Source: Nitrososphaerota archaeon
GTDB taxonomy: Archaea; Thermoproteota; Nitrososphaeria; Nitrososphaerales; UBA183
DNA length: 35,933 nt
Reading direction: 5' to 3'
Assembly: GCA_029784825.1 (NCBI GenBank)
Contig: JAFMAU010000019.1
Coordinates: forward strand, 1-35,933
Under the pieces are notes generated by a model. The model saw nothing but the letters and a program-made list of their open reading frames with translations. It was not told the DNA's origin and made no database searches. Below are positions 5,374 through 18,898 of the stretch, piece by piece (the first letter of the stretch is position 1; each line of letters begins with the position of its first letter). The position numbers and the translations under genes were made by a program.

Positions 5374-6306
5374 CTAGGAGGTCTTTGCGGAAACAAGTCT
5401 CTGGATAGCGGGAATGACCTGGTAGAGGTCGCCTACAACGCCGTAGTCCGCGGCCTGGAAGATGGGTGCATCCTTGTCGGAGTTGATCGCCGCGATGACC
5501 TTCGAGTCCTTTATTCCCGCGACGTGCTGGAGCTGACCGGAGATGCCGACCGCCAGATAGAGCTCTGGGCGGACGCTCACGCCCGTGAGACCTATGTGAC
5601 ACTCCTCGGGAAGCCAGCCCAGATCGGATGAGAGCGGCCGTGAGCACCCCAAGGCTGCGCCCATGGCCTTGGCCAATGCCTCGAGCATGGCCAGGTCTTC
5701 CTTCCTCTTGACGCCTCTTCCGGCGGATATGATGACCCTCGCCTTCCTCAAGTCGACGTTTCCAGATTCCTTCTTCGTCTCCCGAAGGATCTTGACTCTG
5801 GACGGAATCTCCCCCACTTCGAGTTCTTGGACCTCACCTCCGTTGGCCGCGGCTGCGGGATAGGCGCCCAACTTCACTGTCGCCACGCAAGGCATCGGAG
5901 CGCTCATCCGGGCGAGCACTCTCCCTGCGTAGACGTTCCTGCTTCCGGTCAGCATCTGGCCCGAGACCGCCAGTTCGAACGCGTCACTCATCGAGCCTGT
6001 GCCCATCTTGGCGGCCAGCCTTGCGGCGACTTCCCGCCCGCGCCTTGTCGACCCGACCAGGATGACCGACGGCGGGGACTTCTGGGCTGCCCTGTAGAGC
6101 ATCTCCGAAACGACGTCCGAAGGGTGAGGGGGCTGGGTGCCGGTCTTCAGGACTAGCTTGCTCGTCGCACTCACGCCGCTTCTCGGCCCTCCAATCTCGA
6201 GCATGACCGACTGTCCTCCGATGGCGTTTGCGATCTGGTTTGCTGCCGTGGAGAGCTCGTTTGCAGCCTCGTCGGACTCCGAGTAGGCCCATATCAGCGG
6301 AGTCAT
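5374..6306 (-). CDS. etfA: Electron transfer flavoprotein, alpha subunit
   Basis: The 310-residue protein has the normal length of EtfA. The N-terminal half is the ETF alpha/beta-type fold. The C-terminal half carries the FAD domain: VIISAGRGVKRKED, then a Ser/Asp-rich segment around CSRPLSSDLGWLP, GLTGVSVRPELYLAVGISG, and the closing NSDKDAPIFQAADYGVVGD. With EtfB it accepts electrons from acyl-CoA dehydrogenase and passes them to a membrane acceptor, here probably the EMO-like protein at 1313-3331. The ATG at 6306 overlaps the etfB stop (ATGA) and gives the expected N-terminus MTPLIWAYSES. A longer reading with about 90 extra residues would run through etfB and has no family support. Confidence 0.93.
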   Translation of the reverse strand: MTPLIWAYSESDEAANELSTAANQIANAIGGQSVMLEIGGPRSGVSATSKLVLKTGTQPPHPSDVVSEMLYRAAQKSPPSVILVGSTRRGREVAARLAAKMGTGSMSDAFELAVSGQMLTGSRNVYAGRVLARMSAPMPCVATVKLGAYPAAAANGGEVQELEVGEIPSRVKILRETKKESGNVDLRKARVIISAGRGVKRKEDLAMLEALAKAMGAALGCSRPLSSDLGWLPEECHIGLTGVSVRPELYLAVGISGQLQHVAGIKDSKVIAAINSDKDAPIFQAADYGVVGDLYQVIPAIQRLVSAKTS

Positions 6307-7073
6307 TTCGGAATGACTCCCTCCGACGCCAGCGCATCTACGAGCTTCTTGGCCGCCTCGTCTGGCGGTCCCTCGATTACGACTCGCTTCCTGTTCATGG
6401 GCTTGCCGGCCATTGAGACCACGCCGACGTTGCCACCTGACAGTCCCGCAGGTCCGAGCGCGCCGGCGGGAACTTCCAGCAACGGCTTCTTGGAAGCCTG
6501 CATTATCTGGATCAGTGTCGGGTATCTCGGCTCGTTTATCTCGCTCACGACGGAAGCGACCATGGGCAACGAGCACTCGACCGCGGCGACCGTGTCCTCC
6601 AGCGACTGCTCCAGATGAGCGGTGTGGTCAGCGATCTCTATCTTCCGCGCATAGCCGACAAAGGGGAGAGCCAGGAGCTCTGCAAGCATCGGAGGCACCT
6701 GCCCTGTGTAGGTGTCCGAAGAGCCTTCGGCACAGAGCACGAGGTCGAAGCCTCCGGCCATCTTCATCGCGCCTGCGAGCAGGCGGGCGGTTCCCAGGGT
6801 ATCGGCGGTCCCGAGCTCGGCGAAGACGTGGACCCCCTTGTCAACGCCCATGGCCAGAGCTTCTTTGATGGTCCGCTTCGCGTCGGCGTTTCCAACCGTA
6901 AACACCGTGACCTCACCTCCCCTGGCCGCCCTGATCCTGACGGCCTCCTCGACGGCATTCTTGTCGAAGGTGCTCATCTTCGAGGGAGAACCCTCGACCA
7001 TGGGAGTACCCGACTGGTCGATCTTCAGCTCCGTTTCATCCACAGCGTGCTTGACGCATACGGCGAATCTCAT
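6303..7073 (-). CDS. etfB: Electron transfer flavoprotein, beta subunit
   Basis: The 256-residue protein starts MRFAVCVKHAVDETEL, the usual EtfB beginning. It contains the family regions around VTVFTVGNADAKRTIKEALAMG and VLCAEGSSDTYTGQVPPMLAE, followed by the DHTAHLEQSLEDTVAAVECSLP segment (split here for length: residues after YARKIEIA). EtfB binds AMP or FAD and pairs with EtfA as a soluble heterodimer. It has the 4-bp ATGA overlap at both ends, with the acyl-CoA dehydrogenase upstream and etfA downstream, which implies one tightly coupled operon. The ATG at 7073 was chosen over an upstream in-frame start because the upstream 30 codons overlap the dehydrogenase gene and do not match the family. 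Confidence 0.93.
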   Translation of the reverse strand: MRFAVCVKHAVDETELKIDQSGTPMVEGSPSKMSTFDKNAVEEAVRIRAARGGEVTVFTVGNADAKRTIKEALAMGVDKGVHVFAELGTADTLGTARLLAGAMKMAGGFDLVLCAEGSSDTYTGQVPPMLAELLALPFVGYARKIEIADHTAHLEQSLEDTVAAVECSLPMVASVVSEINEPRYPTLIQIMQASKKPLLEVPAGALGPAGLSGGNVGVVSMAGKPMNRKRVVIEGPPDEAAKKLVDALASEGVIPK

Positions 7074-8140
7074 ACGGACCGCGCGAGCTCCCTTCTTGCT
7101 ATGAGCATCCGCAGGACCTCTGAGGTGCCTTCCCCGATGGTGAGGAGCCTGGCGTCGCGCCAATGCCTATGGATGTCATCCGTCGTGTAGCCGTGACCCC
7201 CGAATATCTGGATGGCTGCGTCGCAGACCTTGAGCGACATCTCAGTGGCGAGCACCTTGGCCTGGGAGGCCTCGGAAGAGTAGTCCTCGCGTGACTCCCG
7301 AAGGCGTGACGCGTGCAGACACATCAGCCTTCCGGCCGTGATGCCCGTCTTCATGTCGGCAATCTTCTCCCTCGTCAGCTGGAACTCCGCGATGGGCGCC
7401 CCGAATGCCTTCCTCTCCTTGCTGTAGGCGACGGCTTGGTCGAATGCTGCCTGGGCGATGCCAACGCAGATGGAGCCCATCACAATCCTGCTTGCGTTGA
7501 GCATCGTCTTTGCGTATTCGAAACCTTTTCCCTCCTCGCCGACCAGCATCTCCTTGGGCACGCGGCAGTCGGCGAACCTGACCTCCGCTGTCCTCGAGCC
7601 CCGCATGCCGAGCTTCGGAAGGTCGCTTCCAAAGTGAATCCCCGGGCTCTTCTTCTCGACGACAAAGGCTGAAGGTCCGTTCTCCGTGACAGCGAAGACG
7701 AAGTACACGTCTGCCTCGCCCGCATTGGTGATGAATGTCTTGGAACCGTTGAGCAAGTAGTCATTCCCGACCCGTTTCGCCTTGGTGCTCATCGCCTTGG
7801 CGTCTGACCCAGACGTGGGCTCCGTGAGGCTGAAAGAGGCGAGTCTCCTGCCCGAGATGATATCGGGGACGAATGCTTCCCTGATCCCTTCAGACCCGAA
7901 ATGCAACAGTCCCTCCGCGACCGTGTTGTGTATCCCTACACTGAGGGCTATGCTGGCATCCGCCGTGCCAACAAGCTCCATTGCCATCTCAAAGACGCCG
8001 AAGGGTAGGCCGAGCCCGCCGTACTTGGTCGGATACGCCATCTGCGTGATCCCCTTCTCGAAGAGCGACGCCCTCGCCTGCGCGATGCCTGCCTCGTGGG
8101 AGTCGAACGTCGCTGAGGACGGCGCGATTCGCTGATCCAT
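7070..8140 (-). CDS. Acyl-CoA dehydrogenase (N-terminus probably extends to about 8230-8236)
   Basis: This is an FAD-dependent acyl-CoA dehydrogenase, which makes trans-2-enoyl-CoA and reduces EtfAB. Clear family regions are ASFSLTEPTSGSDAKAMSTK (FAD/substrate loop), LNGSKTFITNAGEADVYFVF, the second signature in VCDAAIQIFGGHGYTTDDIH and the C-terminal GEGTSEVLRML, which holds the expected catalytic glutamate region. From the first ATG it is 356 residues, shorter than the usual 380. In-frame codons upstream still read as family N-terminus (FKSEHRQLL, then EALDAISKF directly before the ATG). There is no ATG, GTG or TTG in that stretch, so the real start may be ATT at 8230 or CTG at 8236. The coordinates given are the conservative ones. 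It is first in an operon with etfB and etfA. Chain-length specificity cannot be read. Confidence 0.9.
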   Translation of the reverse strand: MDQRIAPSSATFDSHEAGIAQARASLFEKGITQMAYPTKYGGLGLPFGVFEMAMELVGTADASIALSVGIHNTVAEGLLHFGSEGIREAFVPDIISGRRLASFSLTEPTSGSDAKAMSTKAKRVGNDYLLNGSKTFITNAGEADVYFVFAVTENGPSAFVVEKKSPGIHFGSDLPKLGMRGSRTAEVRFADCRVPKEMLVGEEGKGFEYAKTMLNASRIVMGSICVGIAQAAFDQAVAYSKERKAFGAPIAEFQLTREKIADMKTGITAGRLMCLHASRLRESREDYSSEASQAKVLATEMSLKVCDAAIQIFGGHGYTTDDIHRHWRDARLLTIGEGTSEVLRMLIARRELARSV

Positions 8141-8361: not shown

Positions 8362-9354
8362 ATGAGGCTCGCGCTAGGCTTCAACCCCATCTTCAGCGCT
8401 GCTGAGGCGGCAAAGACGGCAGCAAGCGCCGAGTCGCTCGGATACGACTCGGTCTGGATGCATGAGAGTCTCTTCCAGCGGGACATAGTCACATACATCT
8501 CGTCGATGGCCCTTTCCACGACGAGGATTCGGCTTGCCTCCGGGGTGATCAACACCTTCACGAGGCACCCGGTCACCGCAGCCACAACATTCGCCACGCT
8601 GTCGGAACTCTCCGAAGGGAGGGTCGTGCTCGGCCTGGGCCTGGGCAGCTTTCCCACAGTTCCGCTGATAGGCCACAAGATCTTTCCAGTGGCCGAGACG
8701 AAGCCCCTCAGAAGGATAAGGGAGTACGTCGAGGTGGTCAGGAAGGTCTGGAGCGGCGAGAAGGTCGAGTTCGAGGGCCAGTTCTTCAAGGTGCACAATC
8801 TGACGCTCGGCTTCAAGCCAAGGGCCCCCGTGCCGCTTTTCATCGCGTCACTCTCGCCCAAGACGCAAGAATACGCGGCGAGCGCAGCAGACGGCGTCAT
8901 ACTCTCCCCTGCCTTCAACACCGCCTGGGGGACGGAAAGGATGGTGGAGAACGTGAAGAGAGGGGAGGGACGGAGAGGGGCGAAGGTCGAACGTGCTTCG
9001 TACATTATGGCCTCGTTGGACCCCGACCCGGAGAAGGCCAGGGCGGTCATGCGGGACTACTATTTCTTCGTCTACCAGCTTTCCGAGGTCGTGAGGCCGG
9101 AAGTGCTGGCGCCATGCGGGGTGACAGAGGACATGCTGAAGCCAATGAAGGAGGCGTGGAAGAAGGGAGACCTGCCCGCTGCGAAGAGACTAATCCCCGA
9201 ACGCGCCATCGAAGTCCTCGCGCTTGTCGGGAAGGGAGACCACGCCCTCGACCGACTCACGGAGTACGAGAAGGCGGGGGTCACCCTGCCCATCGTTATG
9301 CCTGTGGGCAACGTCGAGTACGCCATGAAACAGCTCGCGCCCGGGCCTTCCTGA
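8362..9354 (+). CDS. LLM-class flavin/F420-dependent oxidoreductase
   Basis: This is a 330-residue TIM-barrel protein of the bacterial luciferase-like monooxygenase superfamily. Typical features are the N-terminal AESLGYDSVWMHE, then the RIRLASGVINTFTRHPVTAA segment, SEGRVVLGLGLGS, and FKPRAPVPLFIASLSPKTQE. The archaeal members closest in style (5,10-methylenetetrahydromethanopterin reductase-like) use F420H2, while others use FMN. The cofactor cannot be decided from the sequence. It stands alone on the plus strand, divergent from the acyl-CoA dehydrogenase operon, so it may act in the same lipid or aldehyde metabolism, but that is only a neighbourhood argument. The ATG at 8362 fits the upstream TATA-like box. 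Confidence 0.85.
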   Translation: MRLALGFNPIFSAAEAAKTAASAESLGYDSVWMHESLFQRDIVTYISSMALSTTRIRLASGVINTFTRHPVTAATTFATLSELSEGRVVLGLGLGSFPTVPLIGHKIFPVAETKPLRRIREYVEVVRKVWSGEKVEFEGQFFKVHNLTLGFKPRAPVPLFIASLSPKTQEYAASAADGVILSPAFNTAWGTERMVENVKRGEGRRGAKVERASYIMASLDPDPEKARAVMRDYYFFVYQLSEVVRPEVLAPCGVTEDMLKPMKEAWKKGDLPAAKRLIPERAIEVLALVGKGDHALDRLTEYEKAGVTLPIVMPVGNVEYAMKQLAPGPS

Positions 9355-9428
9355 AATCGAGCGTGGCCTGTCGCATGCCTTCGCGGTGCCGGTTCACTCC
9401 CCCGCGGCGGGCTCGCGACAGCGCATCA

Positions 9429-9437
9429 CATTTATGG
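9429..9437 (+). promoter_or_regulatory. TATA-like box for the CPBP-like protein gene
   Basis: CATTTATGG is centred 28-31 nt before TTG 9461 and ATG 9464. It favours a start here over any start further upstream. Confidence 0.45.
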
Positions 9438-9463
9438 CGCGCCCGGGTCGCTGTCCCGAATTG

Positions 9464-10075
9464 ATGCTGAACCGGCTGGCCGCCGGCGCTCTCCTGGTCT
9501 TCGCCACCATGGCGGCAATGCTGCTCTTGCCGCCCGACCTGTTCATCGCAGCCACCTTCGCGTCGACGACCTGCATGGTCTTGGCCAGCGCTGCCCTCGG
9601 AGGATTCAGGACGCTCTTTCGGCCGTCGCCGAAGTCGCTCGCATCCGGCCTGGCCGTGGCCGCGCTGCTGTATCTTGTCTTCCTGGGCGGCAACTTCGGC
9701 ATAACCGTCCTCCATCCCTTCGGCATCGGCGCTTCGAACGAGAACTCGATATACTCGCTGATAGCCGCGCCAGGGAACCCGTGGTACCTCCAAGCACTCG
9801 TCCTCGTATTCGACGCCGTGGGCTACGAATCGTTCTTCAGAGGGGTCCTCCAGAGGCGTCTCCGCCCCAAGGCGGGCGGAGCGGCACCCGTCGCCGCGGC
9901 CGCCATCGACGCAGCGGTCCACCTGCTGTCGCTGAACCCCCTCTGGGTCGTCTCCACGTTCATCGTAGACACAGTCTGGGGGATCAGCTACAAACGCACC
10001 GATGACCTGGCGGGCGTAATGCTCAGTCACTTCGTATGGGACATCCTGATCTTCGTCCTGTTCCCAATACACTGA
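9464..10075 (+). CDS. CPBP-like intramembrane protease family protein with altered first motif
   Basis: A 203-residue membrane protein with about six hydrophobic segments. The C-terminal half follows the CPBP (CAAX-protease and bacteriocin-processing) pattern. Motif 1, usually EExxxR, reads YESFFR at residues 121-126. A His is at 153 in AAIDAAVHLL, and a third motif, HFVWD, is at 189-193. The first of the two motif-1 glutamates is therefore a tyrosine, so protease activity is uncertain. An upstream in-frame start at 9386 exists, but those 26 residues lie before the TATA-like box and look non-coding. ATG 9464 (or TTG 9461) fits a leaderless transcript. Function in this organism is unknown. Confidence 0.65.
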   Translation: MLNRLAAGALLVFATMAAMLLLPPDLFIAATFASTTCMVLASAALGGFRTLFRPSPKSLASGLAVAALLYLVFLGGNFGITVLHPFGIGASNENSIYSLIAAPGNPWYLQALVLVFDAVGYESFFRGVLQRRLRPKAGGAAPVAAAAIDAAVHLLSLNPLWVVSTFIVDTVWGISYKRTDDLAGVMLSHFVWDILIFVLFPIH

Positions 10076-10102
10076 GCGGCTGGGAGAAACCCGCGGGGCA
10101 AT

Positions 10103-10112
10103 CGATAATTAT
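10103..10112 (+). promoter_or_regulatory. TATA-like box for the thiolase-like/DUF35 cluster
   Basis: CGATAATTAT is centred about 29 nt before the GTG at 10137, the first gene of the five-gene cluster. Nothing similar is obvious between the later genes, so one transcript for the cluster is plausible. Confidence 0.45.
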
Positions 10113-10136: not shown

Positions 10137-11258
10137 GTGACCGGCAGGGTCGGCATAGTCGGGGTCGGCTACGAGGGCTTCAGGCCAGCAATAACCGACC
10201 TCTCGACCAGGGAGCTGATGTTCCAGGCGGCGTCCAAGGCCTACGTGGATGCCGGCGTAGACCCCAGGAAGGACATTGGTTCCTTCATCTGCTGCACCGA
10301 AGACCTCTGGGAGGGCTGGAGCATCGCCGACGAGATGGTACCCGACCAGATCGGCGGGGCCAGGAAGCCTGTCTGCACAGTTCCTGCAGACGGAGTCACG
10401 GGCATCGGACACGCCGTCATGCACATCAGGGCAGGGATAGCCGACGTCGTGGCCGTCGAGGCCCACAGCAAGGTGGCGGACGTCCTTGACAAGCAGGCCG
10501 TCGAGAACCTCGCGCTCGACCCGGCATACCTTCGGGTTCCCGGAGCGAACAACGACCTTCTGGCAGGACTCGAGATGAGCGGCTTCATGAAACGGGCGGG
10601 TGTCTCAAGGGACGAGCTGAGCGGCCTGGTGGCGACCGAGAAGGCCGCGGCCATCAGGAACCCGAGGGCGAGCTACGGGCTGGCGCTTTCCCCTTCGCAG
10701 GTGAGCGCTGCTGAACCGATTTCGCTTCCCCTCAGGAAGTACGACAAGTCAGCGTTCGCGGAGGCGGGAGTTGTGGCCGTGGTGGCATCCGAGAGATGGA
10801 TCAGGAAGCGAAAGAAGGAAGCGGTCTTCGTCGACGGCATTGCCTGGCGCTCCAGCACGCCATGGCATGAGGGAGGCCCTGTCGCCATCGCGAGGTACGC
10901 GAAGGACGCGTTCGCTGGCGCAGCGAAGCAGGCGCGCCTGAAGTCGATGACTTCGATAGACTTCTTCGAGGTCGACGACACATACTCGTACAAGCTGATG
11001 CAGCACATCCTCTCCATGGGCATCACCAAGGCCGGCGCCATCAGGCTGGCGAAGGCGGGCAGGCTCAACCCGAGCGGCGGCTCGCTCGGGATCGGGAACC
11101 TCATAGAGGCGACAGGCCTCCGCCAGGTGCTGGAGTGCGTGATGCAACTCCGAGGGGAGGCGGGGAAGAACCAGGTGAGGGGTGCTAGGAGAGGAGCAGT
11201 GGTGAGCTGGCGCGGCAACCCGACGGCGACCGGAGCGGCGGCGGTGCTTTCCAGATGA
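10137..11258 (+). CDS. SCP2-thiolase-like protein A, catalytic residues substituted
   Basis: The 373-residue protein has the fold and length of SCP2-type thiolases: N-terminal GRVGIVGVGYEGF, and a C-terminal NPSGG...EATGLRQVLE followed by QLRGEAGKNQV. The three catalytic positions are changed. The nucleophile region (usually ACASG) reads PADGVTG, putting Asp85 where Cys is expected. The EVHDxF histidine is Asp280 (EVDDTY). The GHPxGATG histidine is Asn321 (IGNLIEATG). Normal Claisen condensation or thiolysis is therefore unlikely. The GTG start is about 29 nt after a TATA-like box. The stop overlaps thiolase-like gene B by 4 bp (ATGA), pointing to a heteromeric pair. Family knowledge: Cys-less SCP2 thiolases such as Ltp2 act as aldolases together with DUF35 proteins. 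Whether that holds here is inference. Confidence 0.85.
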   Translation: MTGRVGIVGVGYEGFRPAITDLSTRELMFQAASKAYVDAGVDPRKDIGSFICCTEDLWEGWSIADEMVPDQIGGARKPVCTVPADGVTGIGHAVMHIRAGIADVVAVEAHSKVADVLDKQAVENLALDPAYLRVPGANNDLLAGLEMSGFMKRAGVSRDELSGLVATEKAAAIRNPRASYGLALSPSQVSAAEPISLPLRKYDKSAFAEAGVVAVVASERWIRKRKKEAVFVDGIAWRSSTPWHEGGPVAIARYAKDAFAGAAKQARLKSMTSIDFFEVDDTYSYKLMQHILSMGITKAGAIRLAKAGRLNPSGGSLGIGNLIEATGLRQVLECVMQLRGEAGKNQVRGARRGAVVSWRGNPTATGAAAVLSR

Positions 11259-12412
11259 GAAGGGTCGCGGTAATAGGCGCCGGGATGACCAAGTTCAGAC
11301 GCAGGATGCTGGAGACAGGCAGAGAGCTCTCCTTCGAGGCGAGTCGCATGGCGCTCGACTCTGCCGGCATGGAGGTCAAGGACGTCGAATCGGTGGTCAT
11401 GGGGACCGCCCCCGACGCCTTCGACGGCATCCACATGAAGGGAGAGTACCTGATGGACGGGGCGGGCGGAACCAACAAGCCGTACAGCAGGGTATACGTC
11501 GGCGGAGGCACCGGGGTCTTCGTCCCTGCGGCGGCCTGGTGGCACGTCGCGTCTGGGCTCTTCGACAGCTGCCTCGCGGTGGCTGAGGAGAAGATGTCTC
11601 CTCTGCAGCCGCACCCCCAGTACGCCTTTTGGAGCATCTTCGACCACACCCTGGAGAGGCCCCTCGGCGTCAACCTGCTGTGGGTGTTCTCGCTCGAGAT
11701 GAGGAGGTACATGGCGGTCCACAACGTCAAGGAGGAGGACATCGCGCTAGTCTCGGTGAAGAACAAGGGGAACGCCATGGACCACCCGTGCGCCCAGATC
11801 CCCGCAAGGATCACCGTGGACGACGTGATGAAGAGCGAACCCATCTGCCTTCCTGTGAAGAGGCTGGACGTGTCGCCCGCCTCAGACGGCGCCGCTGCCG
11901 TCATGCTCGTGTCAGAGGACGTGGCAAGAAAGTACACCGACGACCCGGTCTGGATAGACGGAGTCGGATGGAACGTGGACACCCAGTACTGGACCAACAG
12001 AGACCTGTACTACCCCAGATACGTCGAGGAGGCGGCAAGAATGGCCTACAGGATGGCCAGGATAGACGAGCCGAAAAAGCAGATCGATTTCGCCGAAGTC
12101 TACGACCCCTTCGACTACAAGGAGCTGCACCACCTCGAAGGCGTACTGCTGGCAGACAAGGGAAAGGCGCCGCAGATGACGAGAGAGGGGATCACCCAGA
12201 GGGACGGCGACCTCCCCGTCAACCCGTCGGGCGGCCTTCTGGGAGTGGGGAACCCCATCGCTGCCGCAGGCATGATGAAGGTGTGCGAGTTGTTCTGGCA
12301 GCTCAGGGGGGAGGCAGGGAAGAGGCAGGTGAAGAAGGAGGTCGAGAGGGGGCTGGCCCAGGCGTGGGGCGACCTCCTGCAGGTCGGCACGGTAATCACG
12401 ATGAGACGATAG
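11255..12412 (+). CDS. SCP2-thiolase-like protein B, catalytic residues substituted
   Basis: A 385-residue SCP2-thiolase fold protein that begins MRRVAVIGAGMTKFRRR and ends with VNPSGGLLGVGNPIAAAG and QLRGEAGKRQV. It is clearly different from its neighbour A, so this is not a recent duplication. The nucleophile position is glycine in YVGGGTGV (residues 81-88). The EVHDxF histidine is Tyr283 (EVYDPF). The GHP histidine is Asn333 (GNPIAAAG). A tyrosine in the place of that histidine recalls what is described for the steroid side-chain aldolase Ltp2. I could not align them, so this is only a hint. It is translated from an ATG overlapping the stop of gene A and lies 21 bp before the acyl-CoA synthetase gene. 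Automatic annotation as acetyl-CoA acetyltransferase would probably be wrong. Confidence 0.85.
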   Translation: MRRVAVIGAGMTKFRRRMLETGRELSFEASRMALDSAGMEVKDVESVVMGTAPDAFDGIHMKGEYLMDGAGGTNKPYSRVYVGGGTGVFVPAAAWWHVASGLFDSCLAVAEEKMSPLQPHPQYAFWSIFDHTLERPLGVNLLWVFSLEMRRYMAVHNVKEEDIALVSVKNKGNAMDHPCAQIPARITVDDVMKSEPICLPVKRLDVSPASDGAAAVMLVSEDVARKYTDDPVWIDGVGWNVDTQYWTNRDLYYPRYVEEAARMAYRMARIDEPKKQIDFAEVYDPFDYKELHHLEGVLLADKGKAPQMTREGITQRDGDLPVNPSGGLLGVGNPIAAAGMMKVCELFWQLRGEAGKRQVKKEVERGLAQAWGDLLQVGTVITMRR

Positions 12413-12433
12413 CAGCGGCCGTTGTGAAGCTCG

Positions 12434-14395
12434 ATGGCGCGCGGAAAGCTGCTCTGGGAGCCGGATGAAGAGAGGATTCGCAGCGCCAACATCACCGGCT
12501 ATGCGCGCTGGCTGGAGCGCGAAGGCAAGCACTTCGAGAACTACGGCGAACTCTGGAGGTGGTCCGTTGACAACCTGGAGGAATTTTGGCAATCGATCTG
12601 GGACTACTTCCGAATCAGGTCGGAGGGAAGCTACCGCAGAGTGCTCTCGTCGCGAAGGATGCCGGGTGCGAAGTGGTTCGAAGGAGCTAGGCTGAACTTC
12701 GCAGAGCACGTCTTCGCCGGGAGGCGAAAGGGCCCCGCCCTCATCTCGCGCTCCGAGGACGGGGAGCTGAGGACGGCCAGCTGGAGCGAGATGGAGAGGA
12801 TGACGGGCTCGGTCGCGGAGAGCCTGAGGGAGATGGGCGTGAGGCCGGGCGACAGGGTGGCCAGCTATCTTCCAAATTCCATAGAGGCAGCGGTCGCATT
12901 CCTGGCCTGCGCGAGCATGGGGGCGGTGTGGTCGTCCTGCTCACCAGATTTCGGAGCGCCCAGCGTGGTGGACAGGTTCGCTCAGGTCGGCCCCAAGGTC
13001 CTCTTCGCGACCGAGGGGTACAGGTACGGAGGCAAGGCTCACGACAGGGCCGAGGCGCTGGACACGGCCCTCTCGGCTCTCCCGACTGTAAAGAGACTGG
13101 TGGTCGTCAGGAAGAGCTCGACGCCGAGGAGGCACGGAGAAGTCGCCTGGGAGGAGGTGTCGTCGGCCAGGGCACGCTTGAGGTTCCAGCGCTTTCCCGC
13201 TTCCCACCCGCTCTGGATCCTCTACTCTTCAGGCACGACCGGGCTGCCCAAGCCCCTGGTCCACAGCACAGCGGGCATCCTTCTGGAGCACATGAAGATC
13301 CTCTCGCTCCACAACGACCTGAAGGCGGGCGACCGCTTCTTCTGGTTCACGACCACGGGCTGGATGATGTGGAACTACCTGCTCGGGGGGCTCCTGCACG
13401 GGGTGACCTGCGTGCTCTACGACGGCAGCCCGAGCTACCCGGACTTCAACGCGCTGTGGGACGTCGCCGAGGAGACCGGGGTCTCCTTCATGGGCGCCAG
13501 CGCCGCCTTCATCTCGTCCTGCATGAAGGCCGAGGTCGCCCCGGCGCAGACGCACAGGCTCTCCAAGCTGAGGGGAATCGGCTCGACCGGTTCGCCACTG
13601 ACCGCGGACGCCTTCGAGTGGGTCTACGCCCGGGTGAAAGAGGACGTCTGGCTGGCCTCCATAAGCGGAGGAACCGACTTGTGCACGCCGTTCGTGGGCG
13701 GCTGCCCGACCCTTCCCGTCTTCTCGGGCGAAATCCAGTGCAGGTGTCTCGGGGCGAAGGTCGAGTCCTTCGACGAAGCTGGGAGGGCCGTGATCGGGAA
13801 GACGGGCGAGCTTGTGGTCACGGAGCCGATGCCGAGCATGCCCGTCCAGATGTGGGGAGACAAGGGCGGGAGCAGGTACAGGGAGAGCTACTTCGGGATG
13901 TTCCCTGGAGTGTGGAGGCACGGCGACTGGATCGAGATAACCGAGCGCGGCACCTGCGTCATCCACGGCAGGTCAGACGCGACCATAAAGCGGATGGGAA
14001 TCAGAATCGGGACCTCGGAGCTGTACAGGTCCGTCGAGTCGATGCCCGAAGTGGCGGATGTCCTCGCGGTGGACCTGGAGGGCCTGGAGGGCAGACCGGT
14101 GATGTTCCTCTTCGTGGCGACCACGCCGGGCGTCACTTTCAGCGGGGAGCTCTCGGGCAGGATAAGGCAGAAGATCGCTGGCGACGTCTCGAAGCGCCAC
14201 GTGCCCGACTTCGTGGTCCACGTCCGGAGCGTCCCCCGTACCCTGAGCGGGAAGCGGATGGAGGTCCCGGTCAAGAGGATATTCGAGGGGGGAGAGGTCG
14301 ACAGGGCACTGAACAGGGGCTCCATGGCCGACCCCGCCTCGGTGGACGAGTACGTCGAGCTGGCCAAGAGGTACAGGAGGGACGGGAAACTTTGA
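12434..14395 (+). CDS. Acetoacetyl-CoA synthetase-like acyl-CoA ligase
   Basis: A 653-residue ANL-superfamily enzyme of the acetyl-/acetoacetyl-CoA synthetase subgroup. The N-terminal ACAS extension (WEPDEERIRSANITGYARWL) and the NFAEHVF segment are typical of acetoacetyl-CoA synthetase. The adenylation motif YSSGTTGLPKPLVHS is at residues 264-278, followed by FFWFTTTGWMMWNYLLGG and SGGTDLCTPF. The C-terminal hinge HGRSDATIKRMGIRIG and the lysine in RTLSGKRMEVPVK complete the active site. It should make acyl-CoA from a short 3-oxo acid or related acid with ATP. Length and motifs favour acetoacetate, but the position between Cys-less thiolases and DUF35 genes leaves the true substrate open. 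The gene is complete, starts with ATG and lies on the same strand as its neighbours with short gaps. Confidence 0.88.
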   Translation: MARGKLLWEPDEERIRSANITGYARWLEREGKHFENYGELWRWSVDNLEEFWQSIWDYFRIRSEGSYRRVLSSRRMPGAKWFEGARLNFAEHVFAGRRKGPALISRSEDGELRTASWSEMERMTGSVAESLREMGVRPGDRVASYLPNSIEAAVAFLACASMGAVWSSCSPDFGAPSVVDRFAQVGPKVLFATEGYRYGGKAHDRAEALDTALSALPTVKRLVVVRKSSTPRRHGEVAWEEVSSARARLRFQRFPASHPLWILYSSGTTGLPKPLVHSTAGILLEHMKILSLHNDLKAGDRFFWFTTTGWMMWNYLLGGLLHGVTCVLYDGSPSYPDFNALWDVAEETGVSFMGASAAFISSCMKAEVAPAQTHRLSKLRGIGSTGSPLTADAFEWVYARVKEDVWLASISGGTDLCTPFVGGCPTLPVFSGEIQCRCLGAKVESFDEAGRAVIGKTGELVVTEPMPSMPVQMWGDKGGSRYRESYFGMFPGVWRHGDWIEITERGTCVIHGRSDATIKRMGIRIGTSELYRSVESMPEVADVLAVDLEGLEGRPVMFLFVATTPGVTFSGELSGRIRQKIAGDVSKRHVPDFVVHVRSVPRTLSGKRMEVPVKRIFEGGEVDRALNRGSMADPASVDEYVELAKRYRRDGKL

Positions 14396-14426
14396 AATCC
14401 CCGGCACGAAGAGGAGTGAAGCCAAA

Positions 14427-14933
14427 GTGAGCTCGAAGATCAAAGGCTACCCGGGCACAGAGATAGCGGGTTCTGACCTTGCGGCGGAGAAGTACCTGCT
14501 CACCGCCTACGAAACAGAGCTGCGCTACTCCTGGACGTCGGGCGTGGCCATCAGCAGGTACCTGAGGGGGCTGAAGGAAGGCCAACTGTGGGCAAGGAAG
14601 TGCAACAAATGCGGCAGGACGCTCATACCTCCGCGGATGTACTGCGAAGAGTGCTTCAGGTCCACGGACGAGTGGGTGAGGGTTGGGGACACTGGTACGG
14701 TCAACACTTTCTCGATAAGCTACGTGAACGTGGACGCGAGCAGGAGGACGGACCCGGTCCTGGTGGCTGTGATTGAGATCGACGGCGCATCGCCGGGCAT
14801 GGGGATACTCCACGTGCTGGGAGAGGTGGCCCCGGGCGACATACGCGTGGGTTTGAAGGTCAAGGCCCTGTGGAAGCCGAAGGACGAGAGGACGGGCGCC
14901 ATAACGGACATACGGTACTTCAGGCCCGGATGA
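14427..14933 (+). CDS. DUF35 zinc-ribbon/OB-fold protein A
   Basis: A 168-residue protein with an N-terminal helical segment (ELRYSWTSGVAISRYLRGLK), a rubredoxin-like zinc ribbon with Cys59/62 and Cys73/76 (CNKCGRTLIPPRMYCEEC), and a C-terminal OB-fold (GTVNTFSISYVNVD onward). DUF35 proteins are the obligate partners of many thiolase-fold enzymes. They bridge thiolase and HMG-CoA synthase in archaea, serve the benzoylsuccinyl-CoA thiolase BbsAB, and complete the Ltp2 aldolase. The CoA pantetheine arm is bound at their interface. The position two genes after the thiolase-like pair suggests the same here. The GTG start has a GAGGAG Shine-Dalgarno-like stretch about 11 nt upstream. The gene lies 4 bp before its paralogue B. 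Confidence 0.88.
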   Translation: MSSKIKGYPGTEIAGSDLAAEKYLLTAYETELRYSWTSGVAISRYLRGLKEGQLWARKCNKCGRTLIPPRMYCEECFRSTDEWVRVGDTGTVNTFSISYVNVDASRRTDPVLVAVIEIDGASPGMGILHVLGEVAPGDIRVGLKVKALWKPKDERTGAITDIRYFRPG

Positions 14934-14937
14934 GAGG

Positions 14938-15399
14938 ATGCCCATCGACGAGAGGATCACGAGCACGGAGGAATTGAGGAGCTGGACCGACAAGATCCCG
15001 CTCAGATACGAATACACGGCCGGAGTGGCGGGCGAGCGCTTCCTTCGGGGCCTCAGGGAGGGTAAGATCCTCGCGGGCCGCTGCGGGAAATGCGGAAGGA
15101 GGTACGTTCCGCCCAAGAGTTACTGCGTCGAATGTTTTGCGGCCATCAACCAGTTTGAGACGATCGGTCCGCGGGGAAGTGTCGCGGCCCTTACGGAGAG
15201 CTGGGTCGATTTCGCAGGCAAACGAATGAAGAGCCCGTCGATGTTCGCGTTCGTCGTGTTCAAGGGGGCTGAGGGCGGGATAATCCAGAAGGTCGAGGGG
15301 AAGGGCCTGAGGATCGGGTCCGCAGTGGAGCCGAGATTCGCCCCCGAGTCGGCGAGGAATGGCTCGCTGGCTGACATTGAGAAGTTCGTGGCAGTCTAG
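14938..15399 (+). CDS. DUF35 zinc-ribbon/OB-fold protein B
   Basis: A 153-residue paralogue of the preceding gene. The N-terminal helix (PLRYEYTAGVAGERFLRGLR) and zinc ribbon (Cys49/52, Cys63/66 in CGKCGRRYVPPKSYCVEC) match it closely, while the OB-fold part (GSVAALTESWVDFAGKRM) is divergent. Two DUF35 proteins beside two thiolase-like proteins suggests one partner each or a mixed assembly. The ATG follows a purine-rich GAGAGG and is 4 bp from the previous stop, so translation is coupled. Its stop codon lies in a CTAG that also serves as the stop of the convergent aminotransferase gene. Confidence 0.88.
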   Translation: MPIDERITSTEELRSWTDKIPLRYEYTAGVAGERFLRGLREGKILAGRCGKCGRRYVPPKSYCVECFAAINQFETIGPRGSVAALTESWVDFAGKRMKSPSMFAFVVFKGAEGGIIQKVEGKGLRIGSAVEPRFAPESARNGSLADIEKFVAV

Positions 15400-16319
15400 G
15401 CGCCCACCGGGGTGAGCCACTTCTCGTAGCGGCTTTCCCGCCCGTGAACGACGTCGTCGTAGAGCTTCTGGATCTTCGAGGTCACAGGGTAGTCGCCGTT
15501 CCCTACCTTCCTTCCGTCAACCTCCGCCACCTTCGCTATCCCCACGGCAGTGCCGCTGAAGAATATCTCGTCCGAAGTGTACAGCTCCTCTCTGGTGGAA
15601 TCGTTTCTGTAGAAGGTGACGTTCATGTCGTTGGCGAACTGGATGACGGTGTCCCTCGTTATGCCCCTGAGTATCCCGGAGCTCGCTGGAGGCGTGCTGA
15701 GTATGCCGTCCTTCACCCGGAATATGTTCTCCCCCGGCCCTTCGGCTACCACGCCGTTCTGGTTGAGCAAGATGGCCTCGTCGTATCCGCCAGAGATCGC
15801 CTCCATCTTCGCCAGCGCTGAGTTAGCGTAGTTGGCGGAGCACTTCGCCTGCGGCGGAAGAGATCTGGAGTCGACCCGAGCCCAGCTGGACACCATCGCG
15901 CGCACGCCGTGGTCTTGGCCCGCCTGGCCGAGGTATGCTCCCCACTCCCACGAAGCTATCGCCACCGAAATCTTGCTGTGGAGCGGATTGAGTCCCATTG
16001 CGCCGTACCCCGTAAACGCGATGGGTCTGAGGTAGGATTCCGCAAGACCGTTCACCCTCACCAGCTCCTTGCAGGCACCGGCCAGTTCCTTCGAGGAGAA
16101 CGGAATCGGCATCCTGTAGATCTTGGCGCTATTGAAGAACCTCTCCAGGTGCTCGTCGAGCCTGAAGATTGCCGGCCCCTTCCTTGTGGAGAAAGACCGC
16201 ATCCCTTCGAATACGGCCAATCCGTAGTGCAGCCCGTGCGTCAGGACGTGGATCTTCGCGTCATCCCAGGGCACAAACTTTCCATCCATCCAGATCTTGC
16301 TGAGCGGCTTCAGGCTCAT
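15396..16319 (-). CDS. ilvE: Branched-chain amino acid aminotransferase
   Basis: The 307-residue class IV PLP aminotransferase has the full length of bacterial/archaeal IlvE. The N-terminal KIWMDGKFVPWDDAKIHV and HYGLAVFEGMR are characteristic. The PLP lysine is Lys159 in QAKCSANYANS. The cofactor-phosphate and substrate region EGPGENIF follows, and FFSGTAVGI lies near the C-terminus. It interconverts leucine, isoleucine and valine with their 2-oxo acids. It is alone on the minus strand. The ATG at 16319 has a TATA-like box about 27 nt upstream. The link with the convergent DUF35 cluster is only positional: they share a stop-codon tetranucleotide. Confidence 0.92.
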   Translation of the reverse strand: MSLKPLSKIWMDGKFVPWDDAKIHVLTHGLHYGLAVFEGMRSFSTRKGPAIFRLDEHLERFFNSAKIYRMPIPFSSKELAGACKELVRVNGLAESYLRPIAFTGYGAMGLNPLHSKISVAIASWEWGAYLGQAGQDHGVRAMVSSWARVDSRSLPPQAKCSANYANSALAKMEAISGGYDEAILLNQNGVVAEGPGENIFRVKDGILSTPPASSGILRGITRDTVIQFANDMNVTFYRNDSTREELYTSDEIFFSGTAVGIAKVAEVDGRKVGNGDYPVTSKIQKLYDDVVHGRESRYEKWLTPVGA

Positions 16320-16416: not shown

Positions 16417-17640
16417 TTGAACTCGTTGCGAGCTACGAAGTGTGTGGTACAACGCTTCCAGGACGGCGCCATAGACGATCTCCTCGGCGACTGCCTCACC
16501 CTCACCTACAACGCTGTCCATTTTGCTGAAGTGAACGGAATCAGCAACCGTACACAGATGAAGCAGTTCTACCGAACCCTCAAGGGCGATCCGCTTCCAT
16601 CCTGCTACAAGGTCGCAACCATAACGAGAGCCTGCGCAGTCGTTCGGAGCAGGAAGAAAGGCGAGAAGCGACGCGTGAGTACGAAGCATCCCAACCCGCT
16701 CGGGCCGACGGTCTGCATCATCTCCGTGTTCTTCATCACCGCGAAGGGGAGGCTCTTCATTCCGCTGAGGCGAGACAAGTACGTCGACGTCCTTTTGAAC
16801 AATCACGTCCAGCAGACGCTCGCCGGTGAGGAGCTGAGGAGCCTCACCATGACGCCAGACTCCCTCTCTTTCTGCTACTCCGAGGATGTCGAACCCTCAC
16901 CCGTCAAGACCGCCTACGGGGTCGACAGGAACGAGAAGAACATGACCTTCGGAGACAGGGACGGCGTCATTCAAGTCGACATGGCCAAGGCCGTGACGGT
17001 CAGGCAGACGACCAGGGAGGTCCTGGGCTCCTTCAGGAGAGACGACGTCAGGGTCGGGCGAAGGCTCGCGCGCAAGTGCTGGAAGAGGGCGGATCAGAGG
17101 ACTGGCCAGATGCTCCACGCAGTGACGAACTTCATGGTGGGCTTCTGCGTCAAGAACGGCGCGGCGCTCGCCCTGGAGGACCTCACGGGTATAGGCAAGA
17201 TGTATCGCAGAGGCAGCGGACAGGGGGCTGACTATCGCTTCAGGCTCAACGCCCGGCGTCACTGGAAGGCCAAGCATATGCTCGAATACAAGGCAGCGTG
17301 GAAGGGAGTGACCGTCGTTCAGCTCAACAAGTCTGACACCCACGGCTCCGCGTCGAGGTGCTCGGCGTGCGGGGAGAGCCTCCGCGGTCCCGACAGGGAC
17401 GATGCAGAGCACAGGGGGACGCTGTGGTGCCAGTCGTGCAAGGGGTGGATTGACAGGGACGTGAACGCTGCCCTGAACCTCTCCGCCAGGGGGCTCACTC
17501 GGTTTGCGAGTTCCCTTCCTCTGAGGCCGAAGTCGCTCGCAACAACGGACGTCGCCGAGGGGGAGAAGGGCTGGCAGTTGAAGCGACGAGGGGGAACGAG
17601 ACGACTACTCCAATCCTCAGAGTCGATGCCAGCAAGTTGA
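16417..17640 (+). CDS. tnpB: TnpB, RNA-guided RuvC-like nuclease (OrfB family)
   Basis: The 407-residue protein has the complete TnpB catalytic apparatus. RuvC-I Asp170 lies in YGVDRNEKNMTFGD, RuvC-II Glu254 in LALEDLTGIGK, and RuvC-III Asp348 in IDRDVNAALNLS. A treble-clef zinc finger between them has Cys315/318 and Cys338/341. TnpB proteins of IS200/IS605 and IS607 elements cut DNA next to a target-adjacent motif, guided by an omega-RNA made from the element's right end. The start is a TTG just after an in-frame stop. The N-terminus lacks the usual short beta segment before the helical part, so a slightly trimmed N-terminus is possible. The gene appears intact, without frameshift, and codon use resembles its neighbours. 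No tnpA is adjacent. Confidence 0.88.
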   Translation: MNSLRATKCVVQRFQDGAIDDLLGDCLTLTYNAVHFAEVNGISNRTQMKQFYRTLKGDPLPSCYKVATITRACAVVRSRKKGEKRRVSTKHPNPLGPTVCIISVFFITAKGRLFIPLRRDKYVDVLLNNHVQQTLAGEELRSLTMTPDSLSFCYSEDVEPSPVKTAYGVDRNEKNMTFGDRDGVIQVDMAKAVTVRQTTREVLGSFRRDDVRVGRRLARKCWKRADQRTGQMLHAVTNFMVGFCVKNGAALALEDLTGIGKMYRRGSGQGADYRFRLNARRHWKAKHMLEYKAAWKGVTVVQLNKSDTHGSASRCSACGESLRGPDRDDAEHRGTLWCQSCKGWIDRDVNAALNLSARGLTRFASSLPLRPKSLATTDVAEGEKGWQLKRRGGTRRLLQSSESMPAS

Positions 17641-17652
17641 CTCGTCCGACGG

Positions 17653-17664
17653 AGAGTTGACAGA
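17653..17664 (-). repeat. Terminal inverted repeat, right end
   Basis: AGAGTTGACAGA on the plus strand is the reverse complement of the left end. It lies only 12 bp after the tnpB stop. Confidence 0.6.
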
Positions 17665-17667
17665 ACC

Positions 17668-17676
17668 GGTTTCACC
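17668..17676 (+). repeat. Direct repeat, right copy
   Basis: GGTTTCACC is identical to the left copy at 16357-16365. The right copy also sits in a small hairpin-like context (CCGGT TTC ACCGG), so part of the match could come from secondary structure. Confidence 0.45.
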
Positions 17677-17687
17677 GGCGTCGCGTC

Positions 17688-17697
17688 GTTTAATATC
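17688..17697 (+). promoter_or_regulatory. TATA-like box for the thiolase gene
   Basis: GTTTAATATC is centred about 27 nt before the ATG at 17720. It lies just outside the right direct repeat of the TnpB element, so the insertion left this promoter intact. Confidence 0.5.
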
Positions 17698-17719
17698 GAG
17701 GCTCGACGACTCGTGGTCG

Positions 17720-18898
17720 ATGGCGGACCCGGTGATTCTGTCGGCGTGCAGGACGGCTATAGGCAAGTTCGGCAGGAGCCTTGTCGGAGTCCCGGCCACC
17801 AGGCTGGGCGCGGCCACCATCAAGGAGGCTCTGAGGAGGTCGAGGGTGAGCGCTGATGAGGTCGACGAGGTGATAATGGGGAACGTCCTGTCGGCCGGAC
17901 TCGGACAGCACCCCGCGAGGCAGGCCGCAGTCTTCGCGGGCATCCCCCCGCACGTTGGCTCGCTCACAGTGAACAAGGTCTGCGGCTCCGGGCTGAAAGC
18001 GGTGATGCTGGCGGCGCAATCAATCAGGGCGGGGGACAACGACATCGTGGTCGCAGGCGGCATGGAGAACATGAGCAACGCGCCGTACCTGGTCAGGAAC
18101 CTGCGCTGGGGCCTCAAGTACGGTCACGCGCAGCTGCTCGACTCCATGATAGTCGATGGGCTCTGGGACGCCTACGAAGACTTCCACATGGGAGTGACCG
18201 GGGAGCTGGTCGCAAGGAGGTTCGGGATAACGAGGAGGGAGGCTGACGAGTTCGCCTTCGAGAGCCACATGAGGGCCGCCAGGGCGGCCAAGGCAGGGAG
18301 GTTCGGAGGGGAGACGGTCAGAGTCGAAATCGAGCGCGAGGGGGGCAAAGTCGACCTTTTCGGGAAGGACGAGTGCGTCAGGCCGGACACCACCATCGAG
18401 AAGCTTTCGGCCCTGAAGCCGGTCTTCAGGAAGGGCGGCATCCTCACCGCCGGCAACTCGTCCCAGCTGAGCGACGGCGCGGCTGCGCTCGTCGTGGCGT
18501 CGGAGGACGCGGCCAAGAGGCTCGGCGTCAAACCCCTGGCCCGCGTTGTCGCCTATGGGACGGGCGGGCTCGAGCCGTCCCGTGTCATGGAGGCACCGAT
18601 ACCCACCACCAAGGCTCTCCTCAGAAAGGCGGGCATGAGGATAGACGACATCGACCTGTTCGAGCACAACGAGGCCTACTCAACGGCGTCGATAGCAGTG
18701 AGGAAGGCGTTGGGGGTCGACCCCGAGAGGTTCAACGTGAACGGCGGGGCCGTGGCTCTCGGGCACCCCATAGGATGCAGCGGCGCCAGGGTCCTGACCA
18801 CCCTTCTCCACGAGATGAAGAGGAGAGGCGCTGCGAGAGGTCTGGCGACCCTCTGCCTCGGCGGCGGCAACGCAGTCTCTATGATTGTGGAGCGCTAG
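17720..18898 (+). CDS. Acetyl-CoA C-acetyltransferase / 3-ketoacyl-CoA thiolase
   Basis: A 392-residue classical type I/II thiolase with all catalytic residues: nucleophile Cys88 in VNKVCGSGLKAV, the FEHNEAYS segment, His in ALGHPIGCSGAR and the activating Cys in LCLGGGNA. It condenses two acetyl-CoA or thiolyses 3-oxoacyl-CoA at the last step of beta-oxidation. This complete enzyme contrasts with the two Cys-less thiolase-like proteins at 10137-12412. The ATG at 17720 fits the TATA-like box. A longer reading from 17657 would start inside the right inverted repeat of the TnpB element. The 3' end overlaps the convergent acyl-CoA synthetase gene by 20 bp, suggesting a beta-oxidation neighbourhood. 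Confidence 0.93.
   Translation: MADPVILSACRTAIGKFGRSLVGVPATRLGAATIKEALRRSRVSADEVDEVIMGNVLSAGLGQHPARQAAVFAGIPPHVGSLTVNKVCGSGLKAVMLAAQSIRAGDNDIVVAGGMENMSNAPYLVRNLRWGLKYGHAQLLDSMIVDGLWDAYEDFHMGVTGELVARRFGITRREADEFAFESHMRAARAAKAGRFGGETVRVEIEREGGKVDLFGKDECVRPDTTIEKLSALKPVFRKGGILTAGNSSQLSDGAAALVVASEDAAKRLGVKPLARVVAYGTGGLEPSRVMEAPIPTTKALLRKAGMRIDDIDLFEHNEAYSTASIAVRKALGVDPERFNVNGGAVALGHPIGCSGARVLTTLLHEMKRRGAARGLATLCLGGGNAVSMIVER

Follow-up and report, generated by a model that had tools for sequence, protein, structure and literature searches.

What reaction is served by a gene cluster in which two unlike thiolase-fold proteins stand beside a coenzyme A (CoA) ligase and two unlike DUF35 proteins? Such a cluster occupies positions 10137-15399 of contig JAFMAU010000019.1 of Nitrososphaerota archaeon (GCA_029784825.1); the whole stretch of DNA that was analysed, 35,933 nucleotides of this contig, is called the window here. 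Five forward-strand open reading frames (ORFs) encode, in this order, the thiolase-fold subunits A and B, an acyl-CoA ligase, and the DUF35 proteins D1 and D2. A preliminary description of the locus had listed five one-strand genes with gaps of -4, 21, 31 and 4 bp, and the ORF coordinates confirm this (A and B overlap by 4 bp, and the three spacers follow down to D2). The answer turns on subunit B, which by its sequence carries a conserved, cysteine-free active site that is not that of a thiolase, and which is probably the catalytic subunit of the pair.

The altered active site of subunit B

Subunit B (11255-12412, forward strand, 385 aa) is matched by both the N- and the C-terminal Pfam thiolase domains and passes the NCBIfam model PRK06065 with 679 bits against a cut-off of 455. 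In HMMER alignments, its GGGTG motif places Gly84 at the nucleophilic Cys of solved thiolases, Tyr283-Asp-Pro-Phe (YDPF) aligns with their HDCF or HDAF motif, and GNP aligns with GHP or GHA, the His being replaced by Asn333. Residues Gly84, Tyr283, Asp284, Pro285, Phe286 and Asn333 are identical in all 47 sequences compared (the protein of the window and 46 B-like ORFs of 350-450 aa and at least 55% identity, from 55 loci). The thiolase fold of the SCP2 type is predicted for B, as for A, while its Cys, HDCF and GHP give way to Gly84, YDPF and GNP in every member of the set. Two B-like relatives at 41% identity (loci L137 and L140) lie outside these 47 sequences and inside a second set of 35, where Gly84, Tyr283, Pro285, Phe286 and Asn333 are still invariant. 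The two relatives read TCGTTGG or TCGSTGG, where the Cys falls one alignment position ahead of Gly84, and carry YNPF and NPIGATG. In a wider alignment, HDAF and GHP are retained by two archaeal neighbours, which also have a Cys, and by a Halococcus relative in which Gly occupies the Cys place; a Natrinema relative retains Cys, HDCF and GHP alike. Gly alone is therefore not specific; the combination of Gly, Tyr and Asn is.

Subunit A (10137-11258, forward strand, 373 aa, GTG start) matches the Pfam thiolase C-terminal domain and is nearest to NCBIfam PRK06066, but under its cut-off (381.6 bits vs 516). No nucleophilic Cys was found at the aligned position of A. Across 48 sequences (the window and 47 A-like ORFs of 340-460 aa, from the same 55 loci) the positions equivalent to the site of B are variable, those of the HDCF and GHP motifs included, with Asp85 nearly fixed (47 of 48). 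Judged by these residues, A has no conserved catalytic set and seems to be a degenerate partner, probably with a structural or gating role beside B. The thiolase-like genes had been described as paired, non-identical copies; they do form such a pair, but not an equivalent one, since B has the conserved Cys-free site and A is degenerate. That the altered site of B stays invariant over 47 sequences while A drifts suggests selection for function in B. Named relatives of A among the matches listed are from Nitrososphaerales, other Thaumarchaeota or archaeon metagenome-assembled genomes.

In a 47-row tree (every third sequence of the A and B residue sets, 12 others and the ordinary thiolase), B forms one clade with support 100/100. 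The same is not claimed for A, because the A-position genes of L135 and L136, labelled "other", fall inside the A clade. A row of acyl-CoA dehydrogenases, MaoC hydratases, a weakly A-like, a B-like and a DUF35 protein is found on the Rhodococcus plasmid pLP1 (L147; 2095-5679 for the MaoC, A-like, B-like and DUF35 genes). Its A-like protein has a weak family match (best 36.8 bits) and a very long branch; its B-like protein reads GGATG, YAPF and NPIGATG. This pair splits between the A side and the B side of the tree, at open forks (85/95, 82/94), and the two-subunit split may predate the archaeal phylum, although this is not firm. Plasmid carriage of the window cluster itself is rejected, as the plasmid collection searched contains nothing closely similar.

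DUF35 proteins, ligase and linkage

D1 (14427-14933, forward strand, 168 aa, GTG start) is a DUF35 protein with zinc ribbon and OB fold, and D2 (14938-15399, forward strand, 153 aa) is a second DUF35 protein distinct from it. PF12172 (zf-ChsH2) scores above cut-off in both, and each has the two CxxC pairs of a four-Cys zinc ribbon. The OB domain PF01796 is matched in D1 only; D2 gives no Pfam OB match even at E 1, and aligns to residues 13-129 of 3IRB. That structure, SSO2064, is the best PDB match of D1 (E 3.8e-17) and of D2 (E 7e-22), and the DUF35 chain in 9MYR, the Sal complex, is a further match of D1 (E 6.8e-9). SSO2064 was the first DUF35 structure, and its function was deduced from context, not assayed (PMC2954200). 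Its N-terminal stretch is without counterpart in other solved DUF35 proteins (PMC6996347); D1 and D2 match SSO2064 over most of their length, including this stretch.

Could A and B be non-catalytic CoA-ester binding or regulatory proteins, with some other role for the DUF35 proteins? The classical catalytic residues are gone from both chains, and a published account describes Trf, a DUF35 protein of Sulfolobus that acts in translation by releasing aIF2 from mRNA (PMC6996347). The selected function suggested by the invariant site of B, and the extended match of D1 and D2 to a protein tied by context to acyl-CoA, make this highly improbable.

One scan returned 15 close relatives (L001-L015), some with loci cut by contig ends. 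All 15 have A next to B, and 12 preserve the full order A-B-ligase-D1-D2; with B 77-92% identical, this order is not due to chance. Spacers of about 1 to 2 kb occur inside the cluster in L001, L004, L005, L012 and L014. The DUF35 pair of L008 is divergent from A-B, with the ligase on a separate contig; in L009 the fetched stretch has only A-B, the DUF35 pair and the ligase being on other contigs; and the L015 contig stops within the ligase.

A distant set, selected by A-B match and not random, comprises 35 loci (L106-L136, L138, L139, L144 and L145) out of 40 regions; L137 and L140 are other thiolase-like pairs, and L141-L143 are extra stretches of two counted genomes. A and B are adjacent in 35/35, on the same strand in 34 and divergent in L145. 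The DUF35 pair is linked to A-B in 30 of the 35, and each of the five genomes without DUF35 beside B has a tandem of D1-like and D2-like members elsewhere. Conservation of the block across archaea, proposed earlier as a check, is thus borne out by the order in 12/15 close relatives and by the core A-B-DUF35-DUF35 in 30/35 distant loci. Separation of the DUF35 genes from A-B, which was to count against the idea, is seen only in L009 and in 5/35, and all six genomes have the DUF35 tandem elsewhere. A multi-subunit thiolase-fold/DUF35 enzyme with a ligase, as first proposed, is a likely prediction. In 20 of the 35 distant loci the block has an acyl-CoA dehydrogenase gene next to it on its own strand, and no hydratase adjoining the block was found at the loci inspected.

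The ligase (12434-14395, forward strand, 653 aa, Pfam AMP-binding) is an acyl-CoA synthetase of the acetoacetate--CoA ligase type. It is over both curated cut-offs for that activity (PRK03584, 926.2 vs 639; TIGR01217, 798.9 vs 520.9), its best PDB match is the solved acetoacetate--CoA ligase 4WD1 (E 9.3e-214), and it would charge acetoacetate-like acids with CoA. All 15 close-relative genomes have a ligase match, fragmented in G015. Among the distant loci, a match of at least 190 bits lies within the opened stretch in 25/35, and an acetoacetate-type ligase (at least 680 bits) in nine, four of these on the opposite strand. One of the nine, L130, passes both curated acetoacetate models. The dedicated acyl-CoA ligase of the preliminary description is therefore present, and of the acetoacetate type by two models, but it is the loosest part of the cluster.

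The ligase makes it natural to ask whether the cluster serves acetoacetate use, the ligase making acetoacetyl-CoA and A/B/D1/D2 acting as an unusual thiolase that yields two acetyl-CoA. The nearest overall folds, those of acetoacetyl-CoA thiolases, agree with this. It is nevertheless unlikely: B is without the Cys and without both His residues, an ordinary Cys-bearing thiolase already lies in the same island, and in 26/35 distant loci the opened stretch shows the core with a different type of ligase or without one. An identity of A/B as an ordinary acetoacetyl-CoA thiolase is disfavoured by the active-site residues.

Several smaller observations concern these loci. L137 (6941-9745) and L140 (6660-9462) each carry their other thiolase-like pair with a degenerate partner and one DUF35 gene. 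An indolepyruvate-type 2-oxoacid oxidoreductase pair lies directly ahead of A-B-D1-D2 in L127 (9958-14156, reverse strand), and the small gene between the ligase and the acyl-CoA dehydrogenase of L130 is a methyltransferase. The A-like frame of L075 (G292) has one TAA within the match. In 300 sampled genomes of the same phylum the PRK06066 cut-off is passed in 40 and a match of at least 359 bits is seen in 49; weaker matches, other thiolases among them, occur in 290. The homologue searches listed 120 of 746 and 120 of 7096 matches.

A candidate aldolase-type lyase

The closest parallels to the site of B are steroid aldolases. According to the published account (PMC12329534), Sal carries Gly where thiolases have their Cys, cannot cleave by thiolysis, and requires Tyr302 of its YDCY motif; Ltp2 has its catalytic Tyr in YDHF; and both bind DUF35 proteins. 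B has in common with Ltp2-ChsH2 and Sal-Shy the thiolase fold, a DUF35 partner (predicted for B), a Tyr at the HDCF motif and no Cys nucleophile, and with Sal it shares Gly at the Cys place, a likeness drawn from the motifs published for the two aldolases and from the alignment of B to solved thiolases. Sharing Gly and Tyr with Sal, and Tyr with Ltp2, favours aldolase-type carbon-carbon cleavage or formation, and the earlier guess of such chemistry agrees with the predicted active site. We therefore suggest, with a probability of roughly 40%, that A, B, D1 and D2 together form an aldolase-type lyase that acts on beta-hydroxyacyl-CoA, and that the cluster supplies this heteromeric enzyme with its own ligase. 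Two points weigh against this. The second catalytic residue of the steroid enzymes is Tyr344 in Ltp2 and Cys304 in Sal, where it is the proton donor, and B has Pro285 at the Cys304 place; moreover, in overall fold B resembles ordinary thiolases more closely than aldolases. The steroid enzymes also differ in having two copies of one thiolase-fold chain, as opposed to two unlike chains here, and in acting on steroids.

In the proposed lyase, the ligase would attach CoA to a short beta-oxo or beta-hydroxy acid. A and B would make a thiolase-type dimer, clamped by D1 and D2, which would help to hold CoA. With a beta-hydroxyacyl-CoA bound close to Gly84 of B, Tyr283 would serve as the base that attacks its beta-hydroxyl, and retro-aldol cleavage in B would give a ketone or aldehyde and acetyl-CoA (or the reverse). 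The ordinary thiolase encoded in this island could then take up the acetyl-CoA, or acetoacetyl-CoA that the ligase has formed.

Two further known assemblies resemble the cluster in part. The archaeal thiolase complex with a DUF35 subunit and an HMG-CoA synthase partner (HMG, 3-hydroxy-3-methylglutaryl) is the nearest fold for A and tied nearest for B, but it has a Cys/His thiolase site and the synthase partner, neither of which is seen here. The standard mevalonate complex is accordingly rejected, as it was at the outset, with no HMG-CoA synthase among the scanned window ORFs. The PhlABC acyltransferase also combines an active and an inactive thiolase-superfamily chain with a DUF35 protein, and A/B/D1/D2 might likewise transfer acyl groups to acceptors other than CoA. 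PhlABC, however, is Cys-dependent, has a single DUF35 protein and is biosynthetic. PhlC-type enzymes use a Cys, the residue altered in the C88S variant that one PDB title mentions, and B lacks it; the context here is one of acyl-CoA dehydrogenase and electron transfer flavoprotein (ETF) genes, with no polyketide gene among the scanned window ORFs. Acyl transfer of this kind is improbable.

The component proteins are already known from databases (PRK06065, passed by B; PRK06066, nearest to A, which falls below its cut-off; SSO2064), as are DUF35-thiolase complexes as such; the two NCBIfam models name no reaction. What appears to be new is the predicted joining of two unlike thiolase-fold chains and two unlike DUF35 chains with an invariant Cys-free site. 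The expectation of an undescribed system holds in the literature searched, mostly without subscription journals, where no biochemical study of the A/B/D1/D2 complex was found, nor anything on this cluster in work on acetoacetyl-CoA synthetase together with thiolase in Sulfolobus, on ketone use and on ligase specificity. A study of fatty acids in Sulfolobus acidocaldarius makes no mention of DUF35 or acetoacetyl, and one of Gagatemarchaeaceae none of acetoacet or thiolase (DUF35 was not looked for there). If the lyase is borne out, a Cys-free member with two unlike thiolase-fold chains would join the thiolase/DUF35 complexes, and a reaction would be assigned to families recurring in one archaeal phylum. 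The residue pattern of B is open to direct mutagenesis.

Metabolic background, neighbouring genes and promoter

Upstream of the cluster, on the reverse strand, lie ETF alpha (5374-6576), a second ETF-domain protein (6303-7163) and an acyl-CoA dehydrogenase (7070-8140); ETF and acyl-CoA dehydrogenase genes are upstream in 10 of the 15 close relatives. The branched-chain amino acid transaminase IlvE (15396-16319, reverse strand) is convergent with D2 and found at the same place in 7/15. An ordinary acetyl-CoA C-acyltransferase (17657-18898, forward strand; TIGR01930, 456.9 vs 240.55 bits) retains the catalytic Cys motif VCGSG, and an ordinary thiolase and a second ligase are downstream in 12/15. 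Genomes of the relatives, which are drafts in which genes may be missed, have crotonase in 15/15, 3-hydroxyacyl-CoA dehydrogenase over cut-off in 14/15, MaoC in 4/15 and carboxyltransferase in 5/15. With crotonase, 3-hydroxyacyl-CoA dehydrogenase and the ordinary thiolase present, A/B seem not to be needed for straight-chain beta-oxidation.

Ordinary beta-oxidation cannot cross a beta-methyl branch. A doubtful but more specific form of the aldolase-type proposal makes A/B/D1/D2 a lyase for tertiary beta-hydroxyacyl-CoA that takes acetyl-CoA off beta-methyl-branched acids: 3-hydroxyisovaleryl-CoA would give acetone, HMG-CoA would give acetoacetate, and longer isoprenoid acids would give methyl ketones. 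A carboxylase-free route past the methyl branch would, as speculation, fit; if true, it would mean carboxylase-free breakdown of leucine or isoprenoid lipids, and would explain how archaea without a carboxylase route pass the branch. Actinobacterial Ltp3 and Ltp4, two thiolase-like proteins at a branched carbon that are likened to A/B by description only, are reportedly needed for C24-branched sterol side chains. Single knockouts reportedly had no effect on a C22 product.

A sub-case of the aldolase-type proposal is a substitute HMG-CoA lyase, splitting HMG-CoA into acetyl-CoA and acetoacetate that the ligase recovers. The retro-aldol chemistry is the same, the acetoacetate-type ligase of the operon is accounted for, and IlvE, acyl-CoA dehydrogenase and ETF genes are alongside. 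No HMG-CoA lyase is over cut-off in any of the 15 relatives (weak matches in 10), although the model passes in only 3 of 14 control genomes and absences from draft genomes may be missed genes. This sub-case is distinctly unlikely, because the carboxyltransferase required for the leucine route to HMG-CoA is in only 5/15 genomes and because HMG-CoA, also the mevalonate precursor, would be wasted.

A TATA-like box, AATCGATAATTAT, lies at about 10100-10112 (forward strand), 25-37 bp ahead of the A start. A comparison covering L002-L014 of the 15 relatives (L001 and L015 are outside it) found similar boxes ahead of A in L003-L006 (AACCAATAATTAT, AACCAATAATATC, AATCGATAATTAA), a weaker one in L002, and a different box, like CTTTATTGG or CCTTATTGG, in L007, L011, L013 and L014; no clear match was seen in L008, L009, L010 and L012. 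Directly upstream on the same strand are a luciferase-like (LLM, F420-type) oxidoreductase (8362-9354) and a CPBP (Rce1-like) protease gene (9386-10075) that ends 61 bp before A, so transcriptional read-through into A is possible. The box reported at first is thus present, and recurs in some close relatives, but may not be the sole promoter of the cluster. A scan for bacterial-type terminators 3' of D2 detected none.

In many relatives, too, A is accompanied by genes for the luciferase-like oxidoreductase and the CPBP protease, which may lie on either strand. A TnpB-like gene with a Cas12f1-like TNB domain (16417-17640, forward strand) separates IlvE from the ordinary thiolase in the window. 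Since IlvE and the thiolase are within about 160 bp of each other in the seven relatives that keep IlvE there, this gene was apparently inserted in the window lineage.

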